The notes under the pieces are model-generated. The model searched no databases. It was not told where the DNA came from and saw only the letters and a program-made list of their open reading frames with translations. The translations under genes and the position numbers were made by a program. From the IMG/VR virus record IMGVR_UViG_3300025012_000121, positions 1 to 51,786 of that record: a DNA stretch of 51,786 nt. One strand, 5' to 3'. Below are positions 4,218 through 47,205 of this stretch, piece by piece (position 1 is the stretch's first letter; each line of letters opens with the position of its first letter). Source of the DNA: a virus.

Positions 4218-4327
4218 TTTGAATGACCTCCTATAAATTATATTTAGTTTTCAAAGAATTGTTACGAGGTGTTACGGGTTTTAATACTTATGTATTTATA
4301 TTATGTTGTTGTTTGGTGCTAAATACT

Positions 4328-4355
4328 ATTATATAGATTTTTGAGATAATTGCAA
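4328..4355 (-). promoter_or_regulatory. Sigma-A promoter TTGCAA-16-TATAAT
   Basis: Minus-strand TTGCAA (4350-4355) and TATAAT (4328-4333) with a 16-nt spacer, 110 nt upstream of the DUF932 start, leaving a long untranslated leader. Confidence 0.6.
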
Positions 4356-4632
4356 TAGATTTTAAGTAAATATTTATTTTTTTATTATGTATAGAATTTA
4401 CAGTATATTTACAGGATATTTAATACATATTTATAGTTATTATATCTAAGTATTTTATATTTGTATCGAATTTATATCTAATTATTACTATAGGATAAGA
4501 TATAAGGAATTGTAGAAATAATATACCTTAATTAAATTTTAAGTGGCTTGTTGACCGTCCTGTGAGGGTGAATTTTAGGTAAGTGTTATGTCGGTTGCTG
4601 TTATAGAGGATTAGAGATTTGAGCAAAAAAAT
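4356..4632. other. Intergenic T/G-rich spacer
   Basis: No gene. Includes AAGGAATTGTAGAA near 4504, which resembles AAGGAATTATAGG near 7342 in another gap, so the spacers may share ancestry. Confidence 0.5.
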
Positions 4633-4661
4633 AATAGTATATCGTTGTTGACTATACTATT
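4633..4661 (-). terminator. Intrinsic terminator of the 4685-5758 gene
   Basis: 9-bp stem AATAGTATA / TATACTATT followed on the minus strand by TTTTTTTGC. Confidence 0.7.
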
Positions 4662-4684
4662 TTGGTTAGTTCCCGGTTATTTTG

Positions 4685-5758
4685 TTACTCTTCTCGCCAT
4701 GCACTCACGACTGACAAACTAACATTTAACTGTTTTGCCATATTTTGTGCATCTTCCTTAGCTTCAGTAGATGCATATTCCTTCACCCATATTCTAGTTA
4801 TTTCACCAGGAATTAGGATAATTTCGTTATGAGCATTTTCTCCATAATATCCCTGGTGTTTTTTGTAAAGTTGGGTATAAGAGAATGCAGGAGTAAAACG
4901 GTTTATATCGTCAAATATGTGAACATCATCCTGTATATAAGTGTATATATCTGTACAAGATGCTAATATTACTTCTCCTTTTACATATATTCCCATAAGT
5001 CCAATTGGTTTGTTGGGAGTGCTACAACATATTTCTATTTTGTTATTGTATTTAATTGTATCTTGGATATAATGTAGGTTATTCCAAGGTGAACCATTGT
5101 TAAATGCTGTCAGACCATGTGAATATGAATATTTTGACAGATTTAAATGAGGTGAAGTTATGGCTGCTTGTCTGTTCTGTTCCGCATAGTCGTCGCGGGT
5201 GCTATTATCTAGTCTGTTATTCAGTTTATTCATATGACCAATAAATGCATAATATTGGTTATATGAACGTATTTTGTTATTGAAGAAATTATATGTATTG
5301 TTATAGATTTCCTGGTAGGAATATCTATTTTTTGTTATGTGACAGCGAAAATTAAAGGTGCTATCTTCTGTAAATTCTGACATTTCTAATATATTATATC
5401 TGTCTAAATATGGAATTATGTTACCCTCTGTATCTATAACTTTGTGGTTTAATTGTAAAAACCCTACAAAGATATACTTAGTGTTATCTTGATCGTCAAT
5501 TTCCTGCAATTCAATAGGAATTAAACAATCTAGGGTATATTTCAATTTATTCCATTTACTAGGATTTGAGCAGGTTTGTTCTGTCGGGTAAAATACTACA
5601 TACATATTTTGGAGAATCGACAAGGAGATTTTTTCCGGAAGTGATAAGATTTCAGCTATGGCATTGGCGTAGTTTGGATCAATTGAACAGACTGGTTGAT
5701 CATCGTTGATTGATTCGTTCCACTGGCATAGATAGGGAAAATTTCTTTCTTCTGTCAT
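4685..5758 (-). CDS. Hypothetical protein, 357 aa
   Basis: Starts MTEERNFPYLCQWNES; an AGGAGG lies about 6-7 nt before the ATG. A soluble, Tyr/Asn-rich protein with no signal peptide, membrane segment or nucleotide-binding motif that I can see. The C-terminal 30 residues (TEAKEDAQNMAKQLNVSLSV) look like a short helical or HTH-like tail. Own terminator. Family not recognised; it sits between the DUF932 and amidoligase genes, which gives no functional hint. Confidence 0.7.
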   Translation of the reverse strand: MTEERNFPYLCQWNESINDDQPVCSIDPNYANAIAEILSLPEKISLSILQNMYVVFYPTEQTCSNPSKWNKLKYTLDCLIPIELQEIDDQDNTKYIFVGFLQLNHKVIDTEGNIIPYLDRYNILEMSEFTEDSTFNFRCHITKNRYSYQEIYNNTYNFFNNKIRSYNQYYAFIGHMNKLNNRLDNSTRDDYAEQNRQAAITSPHLNLSKYSYSHGLTAFNNGSPWNNLHYIQDTIKYNNKIEICCSTPNKPIGLMGIYVKGEVILASCTDIYTYIQDDVHIFDDINRFTPAFSYTQLYKKHQGYYGENAHNEIILIPGEITRIWVKEYASTEAKEDAQNMAKQLNVSLSVVSAWREE

Positions 5759-5913
5759 TATAATTCCTCCTAATTTATTATAGTTTTAATGGTTATAATT
5801 GTTAAATATCTTTATGTTACCCACTGTCTGCTGTTATGGCAATATATGGATATTTTATTAAATTGACAATGGGCAAAGAAAAAGTATTTTGCTGGATATT
5901 TATTTTTATATTA

Positions 5914-7059
5914 TTATTCCAAGTTTTTAGATTTGGAGTAAGTAACAAATTCATTATAGCCTTTTTCTGTTGCTACTTGGATCAAATCTGTCCAGGTTAA
6001 TTTTAATGTATCCTGTAAACTAATGGTAGGCATTAACTCAGTTAATAAATGTGTAAACTGTAGACTAGCTTTAAAAGTTTCAATTTTTAACGTACCTCTG
6101 AAAATTCTAATTTCTACAGTATTATCATTTTTTAAATTAACCGCAAAATATCTACCTTCAGCTTTAGCTTTTTTGCAAATTTCAGCAGGTTCTTCTTCTG
6201 TTGATAGATTATTATAACGGTTACAGTATTCTACAATTTGACTATTCTTCCTTCTGGAAAATTTCTTAATGTTATCCCAATTAGTCTCAAAAAATAATAA
6301 TAGTTTAGCAATATTTAAATCCTGTTCGTGTTCTGATTCGCCAAAAGCTAACTTGCTAATGTGTATATGCATCCCACAGGTGCCCGAGTCATGACTAGAA
6401 TATCCTTTTGTATCGCATTCATCTAGTATATATCGCCATCCCATATTTTTCATATGGTAGTTATATGTACAAGGATGTGAAACAAGTTCCATACCACGTT
6501 TAATCGAACCATCTTTTTTAATATAAAGATATTTTTCATACTCAGTTAAATCTGTTCCATTGGCTTGATCATGAATCTCTAAAGCATGGTCTTCCTTAGA
6601 TTCGTAACAATTATATTCCTGCTCTTCTGTTCTGTCAATTTCCAATTCTATTCCATAATATGTATTTGTTACCTCGCCAGTCATAAAATGAAAATTTAAA
6701 GTTTCCGGTGTATATTTATAGTCATGAATAAAAGTTAAATTTTTCTTAATGTCATTCTGACAATCAGCGCAAACTGGTTCATTCTGCCATAATTCAGTGC
6801 TATCACGTTCAACAATATTTTCACATTCGGAACAAATTATTAAATCTAATTCCTCTATGCAGTTATGACAAGCATAATTATTATGACCTTCTGTTATATT
6901 ACTTTTATGGTATTCGGTATTACAAAAACTACAAGTTTTAATTTCTTGAGCGCACTCGTCACAATAAAATTCATACTCTGTAAAATTTCCATCTCGTTGA
7001 TACATATTGTCAGATATATCAGTAAAACCACAATGAAAACAACTTACTAATTCTGGCAT
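5914..7059 (-). CDS. Zinc-ribbon amidoligase (COOH-NH2 ligase)
   Basis: 381 aa. The N-terminal 105 residues carry at least four CxxC pairs (CFHC, CDEC, CSFC, CHNC, CSEC, CADC), i.e. tandem zinc ribbons. From about residue 135 follow the landmarks of the amidoligase family related to glutamine synthetase/GCS: YGIELEID, then KKDGSI and GMELVSHP, CGMHIHIS, GRYFAVNL and TVEIRIFRGTLK. This family is predicted to form amide bonds between carboxyl and amino groups using ATP; its phage substrates are not known. The Glu/Asp in YGIELEID and the HIHIS and RIFRGT blocks are candidate metal and ATP ligands. GGAGG before the ATG; sigma-H-like promoter at 7122-7151. Confidence 0.85.
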   Translation of the reverse strand: MPELVSCFHCGFTDISDNMYQRDGNFTEYEFYCDECAQEIKTCSFCNTEYHKSNITEGHNNYACHNCIEELDLIICSECENIVERDSTELWQNEPVCADCQNDIKKNLTFIHDYKYTPETLNFHFMTGEVTNTYYGIELEIDRTEEQEYNCYESKEDHALEIHDQANGTDLTEYEKYLYIKKDGSIKRGMELVSHPCTYNYHMKNMGWRYILDECDTKGYSSHDSGTCGMHIHISKLAFGESEHEQDLNIAKLLLFFETNWDNIKKFSRRKNSQIVEYCNRYNNLSTEEEPAEICKKAKAEGRYFAVNLKNDNTVEIRIFRGTLKIETFKASLQFTHLLTELMPTISLQDTLKLTWTDLIQVATEKGYNEFVTYSKSKNLE

Positions 7060-7121
7060 TTTTTCAACCTCCTATTGATATAATTTTAAGAATGTAAAAA
7101 TAAATTGTACTACTATATATA

Positions 7122-7151
7122 GTATTCGCCATCGGCCTTGTTTTATCCTTC
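7122..7151 (-). promoter_or_regulatory. Sigma-H-like promoter of the amidoligase gene
   Basis: On the minus strand GAAGGATAA, 12 nt, then GGCGAATAC. This fits the Bacillus/Clostridium sigma-H pattern RNAGGAWWW-N11/12-RNNGAATWW. It overlaps the palindrome TACTATATATAGTA (7111-7124). The same block precedes the genes at 7633 and 8948. Confidence 0.55.
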
Positions 7152-7432
7152 TTTTTTATTAGATATTTTTTAGATTTTTATTTTTATTTTTTGTTGGTTC
7201 GGACATAGATATTATGTATATGTTTATATATATTTGTATAACTATTTAATATGGTTAGAAGGTTGTTAGATAGTTGATAGATAATTGATTGAATAATTAT
7301 TATATCTATGTTTATATAATTATCGTTGTAGAGTCGATTTAAGGAATTATAGGTGTTGGAGTATGTAAATTATATTATAGTGGTCTTAAAATTGATTGTG
7401 TGAGGCATGGAATTGTTAGGGATGAGCAAAAA
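7152..7432. other. Intergenic spacer upstream of the amidoligase promoter
   Basis: No gene. AT-rich then T/G-rich on the plus strand; ends at the terminator at 7433-7456. Confidence 0.55.
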
Positions 7433-24484: not shown

Positions 24485-25876
24485 ATGAGAAAAGTTTTCT
24501 TAGATGATTTACCTAAGAAATATGGTAAAGGTATGTATATTAATAAATTATGTTATGATTGGAAGAATAGTGTAGGGTACAAATTAAAATTTATTTATGA
24601 TAATATTGAAGACGAATTAGAAATTGTTAATTATTATAAAATAAAATATCAAAATTATTTAGATATTAAATATAATGATAGAACAGTAAGTATAACTACT
24701 AATGTTTTTATTAATTGTGGATTGGGTAATTTATTAAATAAACATATTCAAGATTATAAATATAATATTGGCGATATTATAGAAAACAAATTTAGTAAAA
24801 TAGAAATAATAGAACAAATTAGAATTCCTCGTAAAATAGATATGCAAAAAGGTTATAAATATAAGTGTTTAAAATGCGGAAACGAAGATCAAATAAGTGA
24901 AAGTAAATTAGATGGTAAACGAGGTTGTAATGTTTGTTGTTTTCCCTCAAAGAAAGTTTTAAAAGGTTATAACGATCTTTGGACTACTCATCCACATATT
25001 GCAAAATTATTAAAGGATAAAGAATTAGGATATAAAATAAGTCAAGGAAAGCATAATTATGAATTATTTGTTTGTCCTAATTGTAGATATGAAAAATTAT
25101 ATCTTCCTTATAACATAATTAGATTTGGCTTTAGTTGTCCAAAATGCGGAGATGGAATTTCTTTTGCTAATAAAGTAGGATTTAATTTATTAGAGCAATT
25201 AGGAATTGACTTTATACCTGAACATAATTTTTATAATTATAGATTAGATTTTTATTTTGAATTAAATAATAAAAAGTATAATTTTGAAATGGATGGCGGT
25301 ATAGGTCACGGGAATAAAAATACACTAATTAATAAAACAGCAGAAGAATCTAAAGAAGATGATAAACAAAGAGATATATTTATAAATCAGCATAATATAG
25401 AAGTAATAAGAATTGATTGTTTAAAAAGTGAATTAGAATATATAAAAACCAATATATTAAATAGTCAATTAAATAATTTGTTTGATTTATCCATAATAGA
25501 CTGGAATAAATGTGAAGAATTTACTAATAAGAGTTTAGTAAAAATCGCATGTGATTATTGGAATAATGGTATCAAAAGTACAAAAGGAATAGCAAAATTA
25601 ATGAAATTATGTCATGCTACTATTGTTTCATATTTAAACAAAGGTGTTAAATCAGGATTCTGTGATTATAATAAAGGTAAAAGAAAAGTTATTCAATTAT
25701 TACTTGAAAATAAATTTATAAAAGAATGGGAAAGTATTACAAAGGCAGAAAAAGAGTTAAATATAAGAGGTATATCATTATGTTGTAGTGGCAAAGCTAA
25801 AACAGCAGGTAAATTCAAATGGATGTATAAAGAAGATTACGAAGAAATGTTATTAGAATTAGAACAAATACGATAA
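24485..25876 (+). CDS. Vsr/EDxHD-type homing endonuclease with NUMOD1 repeat
   Basis: 463 aa, GGAGGA before the ATG. Two zinc-ribbon-like CxxC clusters (CLKCGN...CNVC about 135-155; CPNC...CPKC about 199-220). Then a PD-(D/E)XK-like core of the Vsr/I-Bth0305I type: YRLDFYFELN, FEMDGGIGHGNKNT, RDIFINQHNIEVIRIDC (about 255-315). The last 60 residues form a NUMOD1-like DNA-binding module (IQLLLENKFIKEWESITKAE...GKFKWMYKEDY). Closely related to the gene at 45547. Free-standing between helicase and methylase. Cleaves DNA to promote its own spread. Confidence 0.82.
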   Translation: MRKVFLDDLPKKYGKGMYINKLCYDWKNSVGYKLKFIYDNIEDELEIVNYYKIKYQNYLDIKYNDRTVSITTNVFINCGLGNLLNKHIQDYKYNIGDIIENKFSKIEIIEQIRIPRKIDMQKGYKYKCLKCGNEDQISESKLDGKRGCNVCCFPSKKVLKGYNDLWTTHPHIAKLLKDKELGYKISQGKHNYELFVCPNCRYEKLYLPYNIIRFGFSCPKCGDGISFANKVGFNLLEQLGIDFIPEHNFYNYRLDFYFELNNKKYNFEMDGGIGHGNKNTLINKTAEESKEDDKQRDIFINQHNIEVIRIDCLKSELEYIKTNILNSQLNNLFDLSIIDWNKCEEFTNKSLVKIACDYWNNGIKSTKGIAKLMKLCHATIVSYLNKGVKSGFCDYNKGKRKVIQLLLENKFIKEWESITKAEKELNIRGISLCCSGKAKTAGKFKWMYKEDYEEMLLELEQIR

Positions 25877-25963
25877 AATATAAATATAAATTTTTTACAT
25901 ATACATATTTTTTGTTAATTCATATAATAAATAAACCAAAATATAAAAAGGAGGACTCCCCTA

Positions 25964-27946
25964 TTGCTACAACTAAATAAAATCTATAATCAAGACTGTA
26001 AAGAAGGTATGAAGTTACTACCAGATAATTCTATATCATCAATTGTCACCGACCCACCTTACGGATTATCTAAAGAGCCAAATATAGTAGAGGTTTTAAC
26101 TAACTGGTTAAACAATGAAGAATACATACATAATTCAAAAGGATTTATGAATGTCGCATGGGATTCATTTGTTCCCAATCCTTCTATATGGAAAGAAGCA
26201 TATAGAGTATTAAAACCAGGAGGATACTTATTATGCTTTGCTGGAACACGTACATATGATTTAATGTGTATAAGTTTAAGATTAGCAGTATTTGAAATTA
26301 GAGATCAAATTGACTGGATCTATTCGACTGGTTTTCCCAAATCAATGAATATCTCAAAAGAAATGGAAAAAAGAAGATGTAAAGTTAATATAGGTGAATG
26401 GATTTTAAAAAGAATGGAATTATTAAATTTAGATAAAAAAGATGTTGCAAAACATTGTAATGTAACACCTAGACAAATAGATCATTGGATTGGTATTAAT
26501 ACTCCTTGTCCTCAAAATCCCAATGAAAAAAGATATTTATTGTTAGAAGAAATATTGCAGGACAAACCATATTTTAGAGAACAATTTATTAGCAAAAAAG
26601 GTAAAAAGATTGGTGAAATTGTGCATCAAAGAAGTGGTGGAAATGATTTTGCTAAAATTGTTGGTTCACAATCAAATTCAAAAACAGAAGAATTATTTGA
26701 TTTAGCAACAGAAGAAGCAAAGCAATGGTCTGGATACGGTACATCCCTTAAACCAGCACACGAACCAATTATAGTAGCAAGAAAACCTCTAAGTGAAAAA
26801 ACTATAGTAGATAATGTTCTAAAATGGAACACTGGTGGAATTAATATTGATGATTGTAGGGTTGAATATCAATCAGAAGAAGATTTAAAAATTGTTAAAG
26901 CAAAATGTAACTTTACTGAGAATTCTAAATCAATAGGATTTGGTACATCAGATACTTTATATGGTACAGGTAGTACACCATTAAACCAAGCAAGAGAATG
27001 TGTTAATAATGAAGGTAGATTCCCTGCAAATATAATTATGGACGAAGAAGCAGGGAAAATATTAGATTTGCAAAGTGGTATTACTAAAAGTGGAAAAGTA
27101 AAAGAAAATAAAGATGCTTATAAAGGAGAATCTAATACGGGATTTTTAAGAGGTAAATCAACATTACAAAATCAACATGGTGATACAGGTGGAGCAAGTA
27201 GATATTTTTTAAATATATTATATTGTGAGGATGATTATATATGTGGGAATATTATAGAAAATCTGAAGGTCGTTGGTACATTAAATGGCGTAATCCAGGA
27301 GATAGAAAAATTTATTCAAAACGTAGAGCAAGATATATATGGGAACAAAACTATGGAGAAATTCCTGTTGGATTTGAAGTGCATCATATTAATAGTGACA
27401 AATCTGACGATAGAATTGAAAATTTGGAATTATTATCAAAATATAAACATAATAAATTACATGGAGATGCAAGAAAAGATCATAAAATTATTGATGGAAT
27501 TGAATATAGAAAATGTCAACACTGTGGAGAATATAAAAATATTAATGAATTTTATAAAAGAAATGAATGTTATCAAGGATATTGTAAAAATTGTTCAAGA
27601 GAAAAATTACGAGAATGGAGATATATCAACAAAGAATCTAATAATAAATATCACAGAGAATATCAAAGAGAAAAAAGGAAATTATATTAATTTTATGTAT
27701 TGTGCTAAAGCAAGTAAAAAGGAACGTGGTGAAGGAAATAATCATCCATGCGTCAAACCATTATCATTAATTAAATATTTAGTCACATTAGTTACTCCAC
27801 CTAATGGTATATGCTTAGACCCATTTGAAGGTTCAGGTACAACATTTCTTGCTTGTCGAGAATCGGGTTTTGATCATATAGGATTTGAAATGAATAAGGA
27901 TTATTGTGATATTGCAGAGAAAAGATTGAATAATAAAAATACATAA
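25964..27946 (+). CDS. DNA methyltransferase (DPPY type) carrying an inserted segment
   Basis: 660 aa from TTG, with GGAGG 9 nt upstream. Target-recognition/catalytic motif TDPPYG (about 39-44), LKPGGYLLCFAG, and an HTH-like insertion (KKDVAKHCNVTPRQIDHW). The C-terminal SAM-binding motif is GICLDPFEGSGTTFLACRES with FEMNKDYCDIAEKRL. An N6-adenine or N4-cytosine methylase of the beta-type order. Between GGASRYFLNILYC and FMYCAKASKKERG is a 477-nt insertion (27228-27704) that keeps the frame open for 159 codons of non-protein-like sequence and contains an HNH gene in another frame. Without it the protein would be 501 aa. Whether the 660-aa form is active is unknown. Confidence 0.88.
   Translation: MLQLNKIYNQDCKEGMKLLPDNSISSIVTDPPYGLSKEPNIVEVLTNWLNNEEYIHNSKGFMNVAWDSFVPNPSIWKEAYRVLKPGGYLLCFAGTRTYDLMCISLRLAVFEIRDQIDWIYSTGFPKSMNISKEMEKRRCKVNIGEWILKRMELLNLDKKDVAKHCNVTPRQIDHWIGINTPCPQNPNEKRYLLLEEILQDKPYFREQFISKKGKKIGEIVHQRSGGNDFAKIVGSQSNSKTEELFDLATEEAKQWSGYGTSLKPAHEPIIVARKPLSEKTIVDNVLKWNTGGINIDDCRVEYQSEEDLKIVKAKCNFTENSKSIGFGTSDTLYGTGSTPLNQARECVNNEGRFPANIIMDEEAGKILDLQSGITKSGKVKENKDAYKGESNTGFLRGKSTLQNQHGDTGGASRYFLNILYCEDDYICGNIIENLKVVGTLNGVIQEIEKFIQNVEQDIYGNKTMEKFLLDLKCIILIVTNLTIELKIWNYYQNINIINYMEMQEKIIKLLMELNIENVNTVENIKILMNFIKEMNVIKDIVKIVQEKNYENGDISTKNLIINITENIKEKKGNYINFMYCAKASKKERGEGNNHPCVKPLSLIKYLVTLVTPPNGICLDPFEGSGTTFLACRESGFDHIGFEMNKDYCDIAEKRLNNKNT
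27228..27704 (+). mobile_element. 477-nt HNH insertion in the methyltransferase gene
   Basis: Bounded by TATTGTG at 27221-27227 and again at 27698-27704, with similar sequence around each copy. It contains an HNH gene with 13 nt before it and 14 nt after. Length is an exact multiple of 3. Confidence 0.7.
27241..27690 (+). CDS. HNH homing endonuclease nested in the methyltransferase
   Basis: 149 aa in a different frame from the methylase, ATG with AGGA upstream. Starts MWEYYRKSEGRWYIKW. HNH motif EVHHINSDKSDDRIENLELL followed by KHNKLHG (about 45-75), then a Cys-rich finger CQHCGEYKNINEFYKRN...CKNC (about 92-120). Complete and in frame. It is expressed by internal initiation from the methylase message. 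Confidence 0.85.
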   Translation: MWEYYRKSEGRWYIKWRNPGDRKIYSKRRARYIWEQNYGEIPVGFEVHHINSDKSDDRIENLELLSKYKHNKLHGDARKDHKIIDGIEYRKCQHCGEYKNINEFYKRNECYQGYCKNCSREKLREWRYINKESNNKYHREYQREKRKLY

Positions 27947-27983
27947 TAATTTAAAAATATTTAACATAATATAAAAATAATTA

Positions 27984-28013
27984 TTGACTTCTACCCTACT
28001 CTCATGCTATAAT
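27984..28013 (+). promoter_or_regulatory. Promoter TTGACT-18-TATAAT with extended -10
   Basis: TTGACT (27984-27989), 18 nt, TGCTATAAT. Upstream of a run of small genes. Confidence 0.7.
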
Positions 28014-28096
28014 ACAATTAATCAATAAACAAATACATAAACAAAAATCTTAAAAGTAATACAAATCTTATAAGAAAGGAGGTGAAAAATCCCCAT

Positions 28097-28273
28097 ATGG
28101 GTAAATATGAATATAAAGTTGAGTTTGAAACTAATAATTCAAATCTAAATAATTCAAATGAAATAATTCCTATTATTCTTAATAAAATAACAGATATAAT
28201 AAGATCAGAATTATTACAATATGTAAATAATCCTATGGTTACTTTTACAATATTAGAAAATGATGAAGAATAA
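28097..28273 (+). CDS. Small hypothetical protein, 58 aa
   Basis: Start at ATG 28097 (MGKYEYKVEFETNNSN). An in-frame GTG at 28082 overlaps the Shine-Dalgarno AAGGAGGTG itself, so is unlikely; the ATG sits 14 nt after GGAGG, longer than usual. Ends PMVTFTILENDEE. Acidic at the C-terminus. Family not recognised. Confidence 0.65.
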   Translation: MGKYEYKVEFETNNSNLNNSNEIIPIILNKITDIIRSELLQYVNNPMVTFTILENDEE

Positions 28274-28327
28274 AAGTTTAATTTAATTTAAACTTATATA
28301 AAATCTATAAGAAAGGAGGTCTACCCT

Positions 28328-28714
28328 ATCCAGAAATACTTAGGAATTTACAACATCTTTACAGAAAATTACTATAATACAAATGAAACAATAATAGACA
28401 AAATGACAAATGAAAAGAATCAATATCTTCAAGGAAATTCAGGTACATATATATACAGATACTCTAAAGACACACTGGCAATATATTTTCCTAGTAATCA
28501 AACCATCAATAAATTAGATGAACAAAATATTGAATATACTATCTTAGCACAAGGCGATACAGAATCTATTTTATTAGTAAATGAAAAATACATAGATAAA
28601 TTGGATTTAGCACTTAAATTTAAAGTAAAAGGACGTTTAGAACAATTAAAAGAATTTAAACGTCAACAAAAATTAGAGAAAAAGTTAGAAAAGGAAAGTA
28701 AGAAAATAGTATAA
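28328..28714 (+). CDS. Hypothetical protein, probable AUC start
   Basis: 128 aa if translation begins at ATC 28328, exactly 8 nt after GGAGG (28315-28319). The reading frame from there (QKYLGIYNIFTENYYNTNET) is protein-like and open. The first in-frame ATG is 28403, with no Shine-Dalgarno. No ATG, GTG or TTG occurs in this frame between the upstream stop (28289) and 28403. The C-terminus is a charged Lys/Glu helix (LEQLKEFKRQQKLEKKLEKE). Function unknown. Confidence 0.65.
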   Translation: MQKYLGIYNIFTENYYNTNETIIDKMTNEKNQYLQGNSGTYIYRYSKDTLAIYFPSNQTINKLDEQNIEYTILAQGDTESILLVNEKYIDKLDLALKFKVKGRLEQLKEFKRQQKLEKKLEKESKKIV

Positions 28715-45546: not shown

Positions 45547-47205
45547 ATGTTGCTAACAAAAGAAGTAGAAATTGGCTTAAGTGGAAGACATATTAAATGG
45601 TATAAAAATAAAGGATATATAATACCAAGGGAAAAAGATAATCAAGGAAGGTTGTCAGTTCCACAGAATACAAAAATATTAGTTAAAGTAGAGGATTTAT
45701 TAGATAGTTATAAGGTGCAAGTTGATATTGGATGTGATGAGTGTGGAGAATATTTAAAAACAATAGCATTGAATGATTATCGAAAATATATTAAAGACGA
45801 TGAACAACATTATTGTATAAATTGTTTTAATTCATTATATATTAATGGAATTAAAGCACAAGAAGTTAAGCAAATAATTAATAATAACTTAGGAGATACT
45901 TGGAAATTACTTAATGTTAAAATAATAAATACTCAAATTAATGTAGATTTAATTAATTCGGATGGATATATGTATAGTAAAATTAAAATTTCCAGCATAA
46001 AAAAAGGTTATATACCACAAGGGTTTTATAAATCTAATATATACATATATCAAAATATTAATAATTGGTGTAAAATAAATAATTATAATATTAGATTGAG
46101 TGATGAGTACATTGGCTATGATGTAAAACTTAAATGGGAATGTTTAGACTGTAATCATATATTTGAAAGAAGTATGAATGCTATTACACGTGGGCAAGTG
46201 GGATGTTCTATTTGTGGAGATAATATTTCATACCCCAATAAGTTTGGACGTAATTTATTAAACCAATTAAATAATACATACAAATTAAAATATATAAAAT
46301 TCGAATATTCACCGGATTGGATTAAACCTAAGAGATATGATAGTTATTTTGAATTTAATAATAAAAAATATATAATTGAAATGGATAGAGCATTGGGACA
46401 TGGTAATAAAAAAACATTAGATGGAACCACCCCTGAAGAATCTCAAGCTATAGATGATTATAAAGATAAAAAAGCAAAAGAACATAATATTAAGATGATT
46501 AGAATTGATTGTGTAAAATCAGATATGAAATATATTAGAGATAATATTTTAGTTAGTGGATTAGCACAGATATTTGATTTATCTAATATTGATTGGTTAA
46601 AATGTCATGAGTTTGCTTGTAACAATTTAGTAAAAGAAACATCTAAATTATGGAATGCTGGAATTAAAAATTCATCAGAAATTAGTGTTATTCTGAACTT
46701 AGGAAAGAGAACAGTTATAAGATATCTTAATGAATGTAGTAAATTGGGGTGGTGTGATTATGATGCCAATGAAATACAAAAAGCAAGTGGGGTAAGATTA
46801 GGAAAATCAGGGGCGAAACCAGTTGTTCAATTGTCGTTAAGTGGTGAATATGTTCAAGAATATAGTAGCATGGTTGAAGCTGAAAAACAAACAGGAATTA
46901 TTATTATGAGTATTTCATCTTGTTGCAGAGGTAAATTAAAATCTGCTGGTGGATATCAATGGATGTTTCTTTCAGATTATAATAAAAGCGAAATAAAACA
47001 ATATAAAAAATCTCCATATGTTAAAAAAGTTGTTCAACTATCACTAAATAAAGAATATATTTCGGAGTTTGATAGTATTATTGAAGCAGAAAGACAATTA
47101 AAAATAAATCATTCAAATATTTCTTCTTGTTGTCTTGGTAAATATAATCATGCAGGTGGTTTTAAATGGATGTACAAATCAGATTATGAAAAATTAGTTG
47201 GATAG
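45547..47205 (+). CDS. Vsr/EDxHD-type homing endonuclease with two NUMOD1 repeats
   Basis: 552 aa, GGAGG before the ATG. Similar in design to the gene at 24485: zinc clusters CDECGEYLKTIAL and CINC, CLDCNHIF and CSICGDN (about 205-225), then YDSYFEFNNKKYIIEMD, GHGNKKT and IKMIRIDC (about 260-325). Two C-terminal NUMOD1-like units (VVQLSLSGEYVQEYSSM; VVQLSLNKEYISEFDSI) instead of one. Lies between portal and protease genes, with its own promoter and terminator. Confidence 0.82.
   Translation: MLLTKEVEIGLSGRHIKWYKNKGYIIPREKDNQGRLSVPQNTKILVKVEDLLDSYKVQVDIGCDECGEYLKTIALNDYRKYIKDDEQHYCINCFNSLYINGIKAQEVKQIINNNLGDTWKLLNVKIINTQINVDLINSDGYMYSKIKISSIKKGYIPQGFYKSNIYIYQNINNWCKINNYNIRLSDEYIGYDVKLKWECLDCNHIFERSMNAITRGQVGCSICGDNISYPNKFGRNLLNQLNNTYKLKYIKFEYSPDWIKPKRYDSYFEFNNKKYIIEMDRALGHGNKKTLDGTTPEESQAIDDYKDKKAKEHNIKMIRIDCVKSDMKYIRDNILVSGLAQIFDLSNIDWLKCHEFACNNLVKETSKLWNAGIKNSSEISVILNLGKRTVIRYLNECSKLGWCDYDANEIQKASGVRLGKSGAKPVVQLSLSGEYVQEYSSMVEAEKQTGIIIMSISSCCRGKLKSAGGYQWMFLSDYNKSEIKQYKKSPYVKKVVQLSLNKEYISEFDSIIEAERQLKINHSNISSCCLGKYNHAGGFKWMYKSDYEKLVG

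Follow-up and report, generated by a model that had tools for sequence, protein, structure and literature searches.

HNH genes are often carried by group I introns, as is the one that encodes I-HmuI, and in phage Aeh1 the HNH homing gene mobE resides in nrdA, a host gene that is split in two and works as pieces. A different arrangement, in which an HNH reading frame lies out of frame inside a phage DNA methylase gene that itself stays open, has been described as the ShiLan domain of mycobacteriophage methylases (Genes 2025; PMC11855218). The available part of that report includes Pacc40 gp60 as a second published case and proposes leaderless initiation. The distribution of the ShiLan domain is described as patchy (PMC9957025), and Applejack gp54/gp55 represents a further out-of-frame HNH in a phage methylase (PMC12613952); the available portions of these three reports contain no test of the open frame against chance. 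A contrast case, to judge from the accessible part of its description, is cyanophage CL131, whose intein contains an HNH_3 domain as part of its own protein, in the frame of the intein (PMC6293099).

The locus analyzed here belongs to an IMG/VR virus record of 51,786 bases and 25.8% GC, the whole of which is referred to as the window. It is a further case of the ShiLan type, at another site, with an HNH gene of another lineage and in a 26% GC phage. The observation is real, the methylase frame is kept open by selection, and the arrangement is explained in outline but is not categorically new. The preliminary description of this DNA had regarded a minimal mobile gene of this kind as unusual, a view overtaken by the 2025 account of the ShiLan domain (PMC11855218, as far as available) and by recurrence of the arrangement in IMG/VR. 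Like gp65 of Mycobacterium phage ShiLan (compared from record JN020143), the window contains an out-of-frame HNH ORF in an open phage DNA methylase gene, in the same frame relation (the ShiLan HNH is offset by 2 from gp65), and in both the HNH ORF spans the insert with its stop at the very end, no intron or intein is seen, and presence is patchy. The two differ in that the window insert precedes YCAKAS, whereas that of ShiLan occupies an EPIVVARKPL site, as does the first HNH of locus L028, the sites being compared by eye; in that the window HNH protein falls in another tree group and has 149 aa against 195 aa; and in that it starts at an ATG with a weak Shine-Dalgarno sequence in a 26% GC phage, whereas ShiLan uses a GTG with no detectable ribosome-binding site. 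Because the published kind already includes the Pacc40 site, the site defines the ShiLan element and not the kind, and the published kind does not demand the same HNH lineage either. Pacc40 gp60 and Applejack gp54/gp55 are likened to the window as out-of-frame HNHs in phage methylases by their available descriptions and not by sequence. A profile search also links the window HNH to the homing endonuclease I-HmuI (PDB 1u3e), but no group I intron was found around it. It resembles Aeh1 mobE as an HNH homing gene in a phage coding gene, although the window host, unlike nrdA, is one open frame.

The methylase, the nested gene and the limits of the insert

The 660-aa ORF encodes an N6/N4 DNA methylase (N6_N4_Mtase PF01555 in Pfam, E = 1.3e-30; phrog_67 in PHROGs, E = 4.5e-64) that also matches solved methylases, and its motif order, judged by eye, is that of the beta class, with DPPY near the N-terminus and FEGSGT near the C-terminus. 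As the preliminary description held, an HNH gene lies out of frame inside this stop-free frame, and both ORFs are confirmed (Table 1). An AlphaFold model of the 660-aa form has confident blocks at approximately residues 1–120, 271–290, and 601–650 and a mean pLDDT of 64.4; its quality is low in the middle of the methylase and at the YCAKAS strand, and the insert appears as low-confidence helices. In Foldseek, M.BceJIV and M.MboIIA match nearly the whole length, with target TM-scores of 0.69–0.74 across the insert and rmsd of 10.7–15 Å, matches that support the methylase fold and not its detail. With a model of this quality, methylase activity retained after insertion is putative. An in-frame methylase ATG occurs at 27695 (MYCAKAS...), just past the HNH stop.

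The 149-aa ORF matches HNH_3 (PF13392, E = 1.3e-15 in Pfam), and across 14 aligned related HNHs the residues H48, H49, N61, H70, C92, C95, and C118 do not vary, while C115 is almost invariant. In a profile search of solved structures, the I-HmuI type (PDB 1u3e) is the only one at E ≤ 0.01, with E = 0.0045. The model of the HNH protein has a mean pLDDT of 77.2, and its Foldseek comparison with the PDB gave no match at E ≤ 0.001, I-HmuI being ranked 10th with E = 1.1; the HNH assignment is therefore made by Pfam, PHROGs, and conserved residues, not by fold. As for the candidate ribosome-binding site of the HNH gene, 171 of the 1119 ATGs in the window (15%) have an equally good one, and a likely start with a Shine-Dalgarno-like site was seen in only 4 of 13 other methylase-nested HNHs.

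Table 1. Positions in the window of the methylase gene, the nested HNH gene, and the repeats around the insert
Feature	Position	Strand	Remarks
Host DNA methylase ORF	25964..27946	+	660 aa; TTG start behind AAGGAGG
Methylase-frame stretch over the insert, 150 codons	27239..27688	+	Protein residues 426–575; low-confidence helices predicted
Nested HNH endonuclease ORF	27241..27690	+	149 aa; methylase codons begin at HNH codon position 2
HNH stop codon TAA	27688..27690	+	Inside flank TATTAATTT common to uninterrupted alleles L007, L008, L038
GAGGA, Shine-Dalgarno-like	27227..27231	+	9 nt 5' of HNH ATG; kept in L004; weak
First TATTGTG repeat	27221..27227	+	Within diverged 5' loop
Second TATTGTG repeat	27698..27704	+	In sequence common to uninterrupted alleles, hence not a boundary
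ATTATAT direct repeat, 5' copy	27234..27240	+	Most likely 5' junction
ATTATAT direct repeat, 3' copy	27681..27687	+	3' junction; flank beyond it common to L007, L008, L038

The 660-aa protein, searched against IMG/VR, retrieved 32 loci. Among these, L002 is identical to the window over 9980 bases, L003 has an insert identical to that of the window and differs elsewhere only, and L004, from another virus, has the same insert with an HNH 94% identical to the window's. The inserts of the window and of L004 may go back to one event. Neither invaded virus shows damage to the C-terminal portion of its methylase. The insert is missing from L005, L006, L007, L008, and L038; its presence is thus patchy, in two of seven close viruses (the window virus and L004), and it is from this distribution that we infer homing.

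These uninterrupted alleles bear directly on the limits of the insert. On the 3' side, TATTAATTT is common to the window and to L007, L008, and L038, which belong to the same virus group, and TTTTATGTATTGTG is common to the window and to L038, L005, and L006. The insert therefore ends at about 27686–27688, short of the second TATTGTG, with the HNH stop belonging to flank sequence. The preliminary description had placed the insert between the TATTGTG repeats, which are indeed 477 nt apart, a multiple of 3; as a 3' boundary, however, this candidate is rejected by all five uninterrupted alleles. Alignment to uninterrupted methylases, which it had proposed for placing both boundaries, fixes the 3' one and narrows the 5' one to 27204–27240, because the 5' loop has diverged (LNILYCEDDYI in the window vs. 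KQCNYDDSDYE in relatives). The two copies of ATTATAT, 447 nt (149 codons) apart, make the best-fitting junction, and the insert would accordingly be the HNH ORF almost exactly (~447 nt). In a methylase alignment made without L040, 70 insert-free rows, near-duplicate loci included, have between SRFF and YCAKAS no residues in 57 rows, 4–16 in 12, and 112 in L116; since the length varies among insert-free rows, the insert site is a naturally variable loop. L005–L008 and L038 have a loop of 15–16 aa at the place of the insert, which was considered as a possible scar of a lost insert.

The surroundings of the methylase start show some further variation. Compared with window positions 25950–25973, the methylase Shine-Dalgarno sequence of L003 is shorter by one G, and an additional C follows the TTG, which puts the methylase start out of frame; either strain variation or an assembly error accounts for this difference. 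Directly upstream of the methylase in the window is a gene at 24485–25876 that is related to another at 45547–47205, both being assigned to phrog_4538 with weaker endonuclease matches.

Stop codons in the methylase frame

With the HNH protein held fixed and codons drawn according to phage usage, 200,000 simulations left the methylase frame open in a fraction of 0.000535; they predict 5.47 stops where none is observed, while the third frame has 29 stops against 30.4 expected. None of 5715 overlapping 150-codon windows in the other long ORFs of the phage is open in the same frame relation. A stricter control, in which the gene's own codons were permuted among synonymous sites, lowers the expectation to 2.46 stops (P = 0.0098). 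The codon choices involved can be recognized in the HNH ORF, where Ile is written ATT or ATC at all eight places with A or G as the next base, and the base after each of the five TTA codons is T or C. Such a simulation had been suggested in the preliminary description together with selection for read-through of the methylase, and stop avoidance beyond chance is found both in the window and in the pooled survey described below. The open methylase frame is not luck; the evidence supports selection that keeps stops out.

Comparison of the window insert with that of L004 indicates which product is conserved. There are 18 substitutions, of which 9 are non-synonymous in HNH against 14.05 expected (P = 0.00175), as read from these two sequences a mark of purifying selection on the HNH frame, whereas 18 of 18 alter a methylase-frame residue. 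Residues changed are thus 18 of 150 in the methylase frame and 9 of 149 in HNH, so that it is the methylase-frame residues that are less conserved; conservation of the 159 residues as protein had been named beforehand as a contrary outcome. The product conserved in sequence is the HNH protein, the methylase frame being only kept open. None of the 18 substitutions creates a methylase-frame stop, which is weak evidence alone, because random placement yields a stop in only 69% of trials and is stop-free in 31%. The purifying selection lends indirect support to a putative HNH endonuclease activity and to homing.

The survey of related HNH genes comprised two retrievals. In the first, an alignment of five nested HNHs served as query, and the best 80 loci contained 87 HNH ORFs, of which 34 (in 33 loci, one of them from the window virus itself) are enclosed by a longer ORF on the same strand; by eye, the host was assigned as a methylase in 12 loci and as an intein-like segment in 21. 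In the second, 14 methylase-nested HNHs were the query, and the best 80 loci gave 72 unique HNH ORFs (72 of 86 kept, duplicates left out), 54 of them nested; because the queries of both retrievals were themselves nested genes, neither the nested share nor the stop-free fraction of the pooled set given below is a natural frequency. Methylase matches flank 50 of these 54 on both sides and three on the C side only, with neither side matched in one. Nesting was scored by an open host frame of 90 nt on each side (first survey and permutation test) or 60 nt (second retrieval and pooled set), and the own-codon permutation test on the first set kept 70 of the 87 ORFs, duplicates and domains of ≤60 aa being left out.

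All 34 nested ORFs of the first retrieval have the host in the HNH+1 frame, as do 51 of the 54 in the second; the exceptions are three short HNH matches nested in +2 with the frame open (L244:2011–2221, L268:2132–2336, and L220:1874–2036). The predominance of +1 can be derived from the genetic code. Stops of the other frame consist of T followed by AA, AG, or GA, and a stop would arise there whenever a T-ending codon precedes Lys, Asn, Asp, Glu, AGN-Ser, or AGR-Arg.

Pooled, with domains shorter than 91 aa and near-duplicates left out, the survey retained 113 distinct HNH genes. Sixty-six of these are free of +1 stops, where locus codon usage predicts 2.8 such genes and permutation of each gene's own codons predicts 15.6. 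Below 40% GC the figures are 19 of 38 (0.09 and 2.0 expected), and at 50–70% GC they are 31 of 50 (2.5 and 10.3 expected). The other 47 genes have 270 +1 stops against 269.2 expected, which disposes of the concern, raised at the outset, that open frames might be common by chance in such HNH genes. The result is a split of HNH genes into two classes. Nesting by rule applies to 64 of the 66 stop-free genes; of the two exceptions, L119, though scored as not nested, lies where its contig ends, within the C-terminal frame of a methylase, and L206 has no +1 stop and is not nested by rule. The hosts inspected were mostly methylases or intein-like segments.

Explanations for the uninterrupted reading frame

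The explanation that is probably correct is that a coding-only homing-type HNH gene inserted in the length-variable methylase loop just before the YCAKAS strand and is tolerated by the methylase as a translated extra loop. The inserted gene brings almost no DNA beyond its own reading frame, its stop codon being borrowed from methylase sequence. The methylase frame is HNH+1, in which stops arise by chance far less often, and synonymous HNH codons avoid the stops that could still occur there; from this frame position and these codons, it is deduced that translation begun at the methylase TTG would run through the insert and yield a methylase of 660 aa, 150 residues of which form a loop that is not conserved. 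Translation from the internal ATG, with the weak GAGGA ahead of it, would yield the HNH enzyme, which would cut uninterrupted methylase alleles and then be copied into the break. The boundaries given by uninterrupted relatives, stop avoidance, purifying selection on the HNH frame, patchy presence, the variable loop, the methylase fold matches across the insert, the methylase matches that flank 50 of 54 nested HNHs, and the ShiLan precedent favor this explanation; points against it are the weak Shine-Dalgarno sequence, the poor model, the HNH model's want of a significant PDB match, a possible single insertion behind the window and L004, the nested queries of the survey, and the three short +2 matches.

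Two of the alternatives, raised in the preliminary description, dispense with the extra residues, and neither is borne out: Rfam gave no match, neither intein nor Hint families were recognized, and there is hardly any non-coding sequence in which a ribozyme could fit. Loss at the RNA level, through a minimal intron or other deletion, would give a methylase made without the 150 residues, and both the repeat spacing by a multiple of 3 and the short direct repeats at the flanks would suit it. It is nonetheless very unlikely, as Rfam returned no family at E ≤ 1 over 26500–28500, and hence no ribozyme core in the insert of the kind that distinguishes a group I or II intron with HNH; the HNH ORF fills the insert and leaves almost no room for a ribozyme, and the avoidance of stops would be superfluous for an intron, which does not depend on an open host frame. 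Excision as an intein-like protein segment would account for the open frame, and the L004 methylase does have an intein-like insert (recognized by eye) with a LAGLIDADG domain elsewhere in the gene. Here, too, the 660-aa protein matches no Hint or intein family at E ≤ 0.1, no intein motif is visible by eye at either junction, and 18 of the 150 methylase-frame residues differ between the window and L004, which leaves this reading scarcely credible.

The remaining alternatives concern what the methylase does with the insert. That it is dead or dispensable, and the frame open by luck, gains something from the description of the ShiLan methylase as non-essential in the available part of PMC11855218 and from the low pLDDT, given that the insert may disturb the fold. 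The chance of an open frame in the window (P = 0.0005 to 0.01), the excess of stop-free genes in the survey, and the intact C-terminal part of the methylase in both invaded viruses make this improbable, though of the alternatives it is the one to be taken most seriously. A methylase that works as pieces, or ribosomes that bypass the insert or shift frame, would fit the in-frame ATG soon after the HNH stop, the methylase of L028 that is broken by stops, and the ATTATAT at both insert ends; however, in an open frame nothing would terminate an N-terminal piece, and stop avoidance would not be needed for either pieces or bypass, so we give this little credence. It is hardly to be believed that the 150 residues are a functional methylase domain: they are retained and open in L004 and predicted helical at low confidence, but every one of the 18 substitutions alters them, uninterrupted relatives manage without them, and no Pfam or PHROGs family has its best stretch confined to them.

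Lineages and hosts of nested HNH genes

A tree of 71 HNHs (domains shorter than 91 aa and 2 duplicates of 73 left out) contains one supported group of 18 rows (96/94) with the window, L004, 12 other methylase-nested HNHs, and four labeled free, namely, L119, which is really nested, L120, L132, and L125. ShiLan, flagged for an unusual letter make-up, is placed with the first HNH of L028 in a separate group of 11 rows (96/95), and the intein-nested HNHs fall elsewhere; from these separate groups it follows that nesting arose, or was lost, more than once. The free genes L120:1702–2175 and L132:2345–2806 lie, by eye, directly downstream of methylase genes and are possible donors or escapees.

HNH genes nested in +1 in intein-like segments include those of L037 (2589–4571), L154, L172, L196, L147, and others, several of them in terminase large subunits. 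Among five intein-type hosts tested with Pfam, Hint or Intein_splicing was found around the HNH in L172, L196, and L147, whereas L037 and L154 have no such match and are called inteins by eye alone; terminase matches are present in four of the five (all except L147). Like the window, the terminase cases (L037, L154, L172, L196, and others) combine a +1 HNH with an open host frame; unlike the window, the host segment looks like an intein, and the extra residues could leave by protein splicing. No out-of-frame HNH in a terminase intein was recognized among the titles and abstracts listed.

The balance of this evidence leans toward a wider reading, in which the window would exemplify a broad class of dual-coded homing endonucleases that evolved repeatedly and do without splicing of their own. 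HNH genes of this class would settle in the stop-poorest frame (host = HNH+1), with codon choice keeping that frame open, and the host would be either a methylase loop, where the residues are tolerated, or the middle of an intein, which removes them. What the analysis adds to the literature compared is the wider survey. It indicates that a mycobacteriophage oddity recurs in environmental phages, including AT-rich ones in which luck is very unlikely, and it makes host translation through an endonuclease gene a question open to statistics as well as to the bench. For annotation, it suggests the rule that an HNH overlapping a methylase or a terminase intein in +1 is probably real and not a mis-call.

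Some loci combine several elements. In L028, one methylase gene (4272–7429) is broken by two searched HNH ORFs, at 4883–5446 and 6685–7143, and an additional HNH-like ORF is seen by eye at 5779–6408; a repeated EPIxxARKPL stretch lies on both sides of the first HNH, as it does in ShiLan, and stops occur in the methylase frame at 5790 and 7157. An intein at the same methylase site (W[IL]YG / SGFPKS) is recognized by eye in both L004:4001–6709 and ShiLan (L198:2786–5668). HNH matches also lie, by position and frames aside, under annotated terminase large subunit genes in phages TJE1, Highwayman, and LS06-2018-MD07; the isolated-phage records with an HNH match under a terminase gene are HQ225832, OZ038341, and OP947163.
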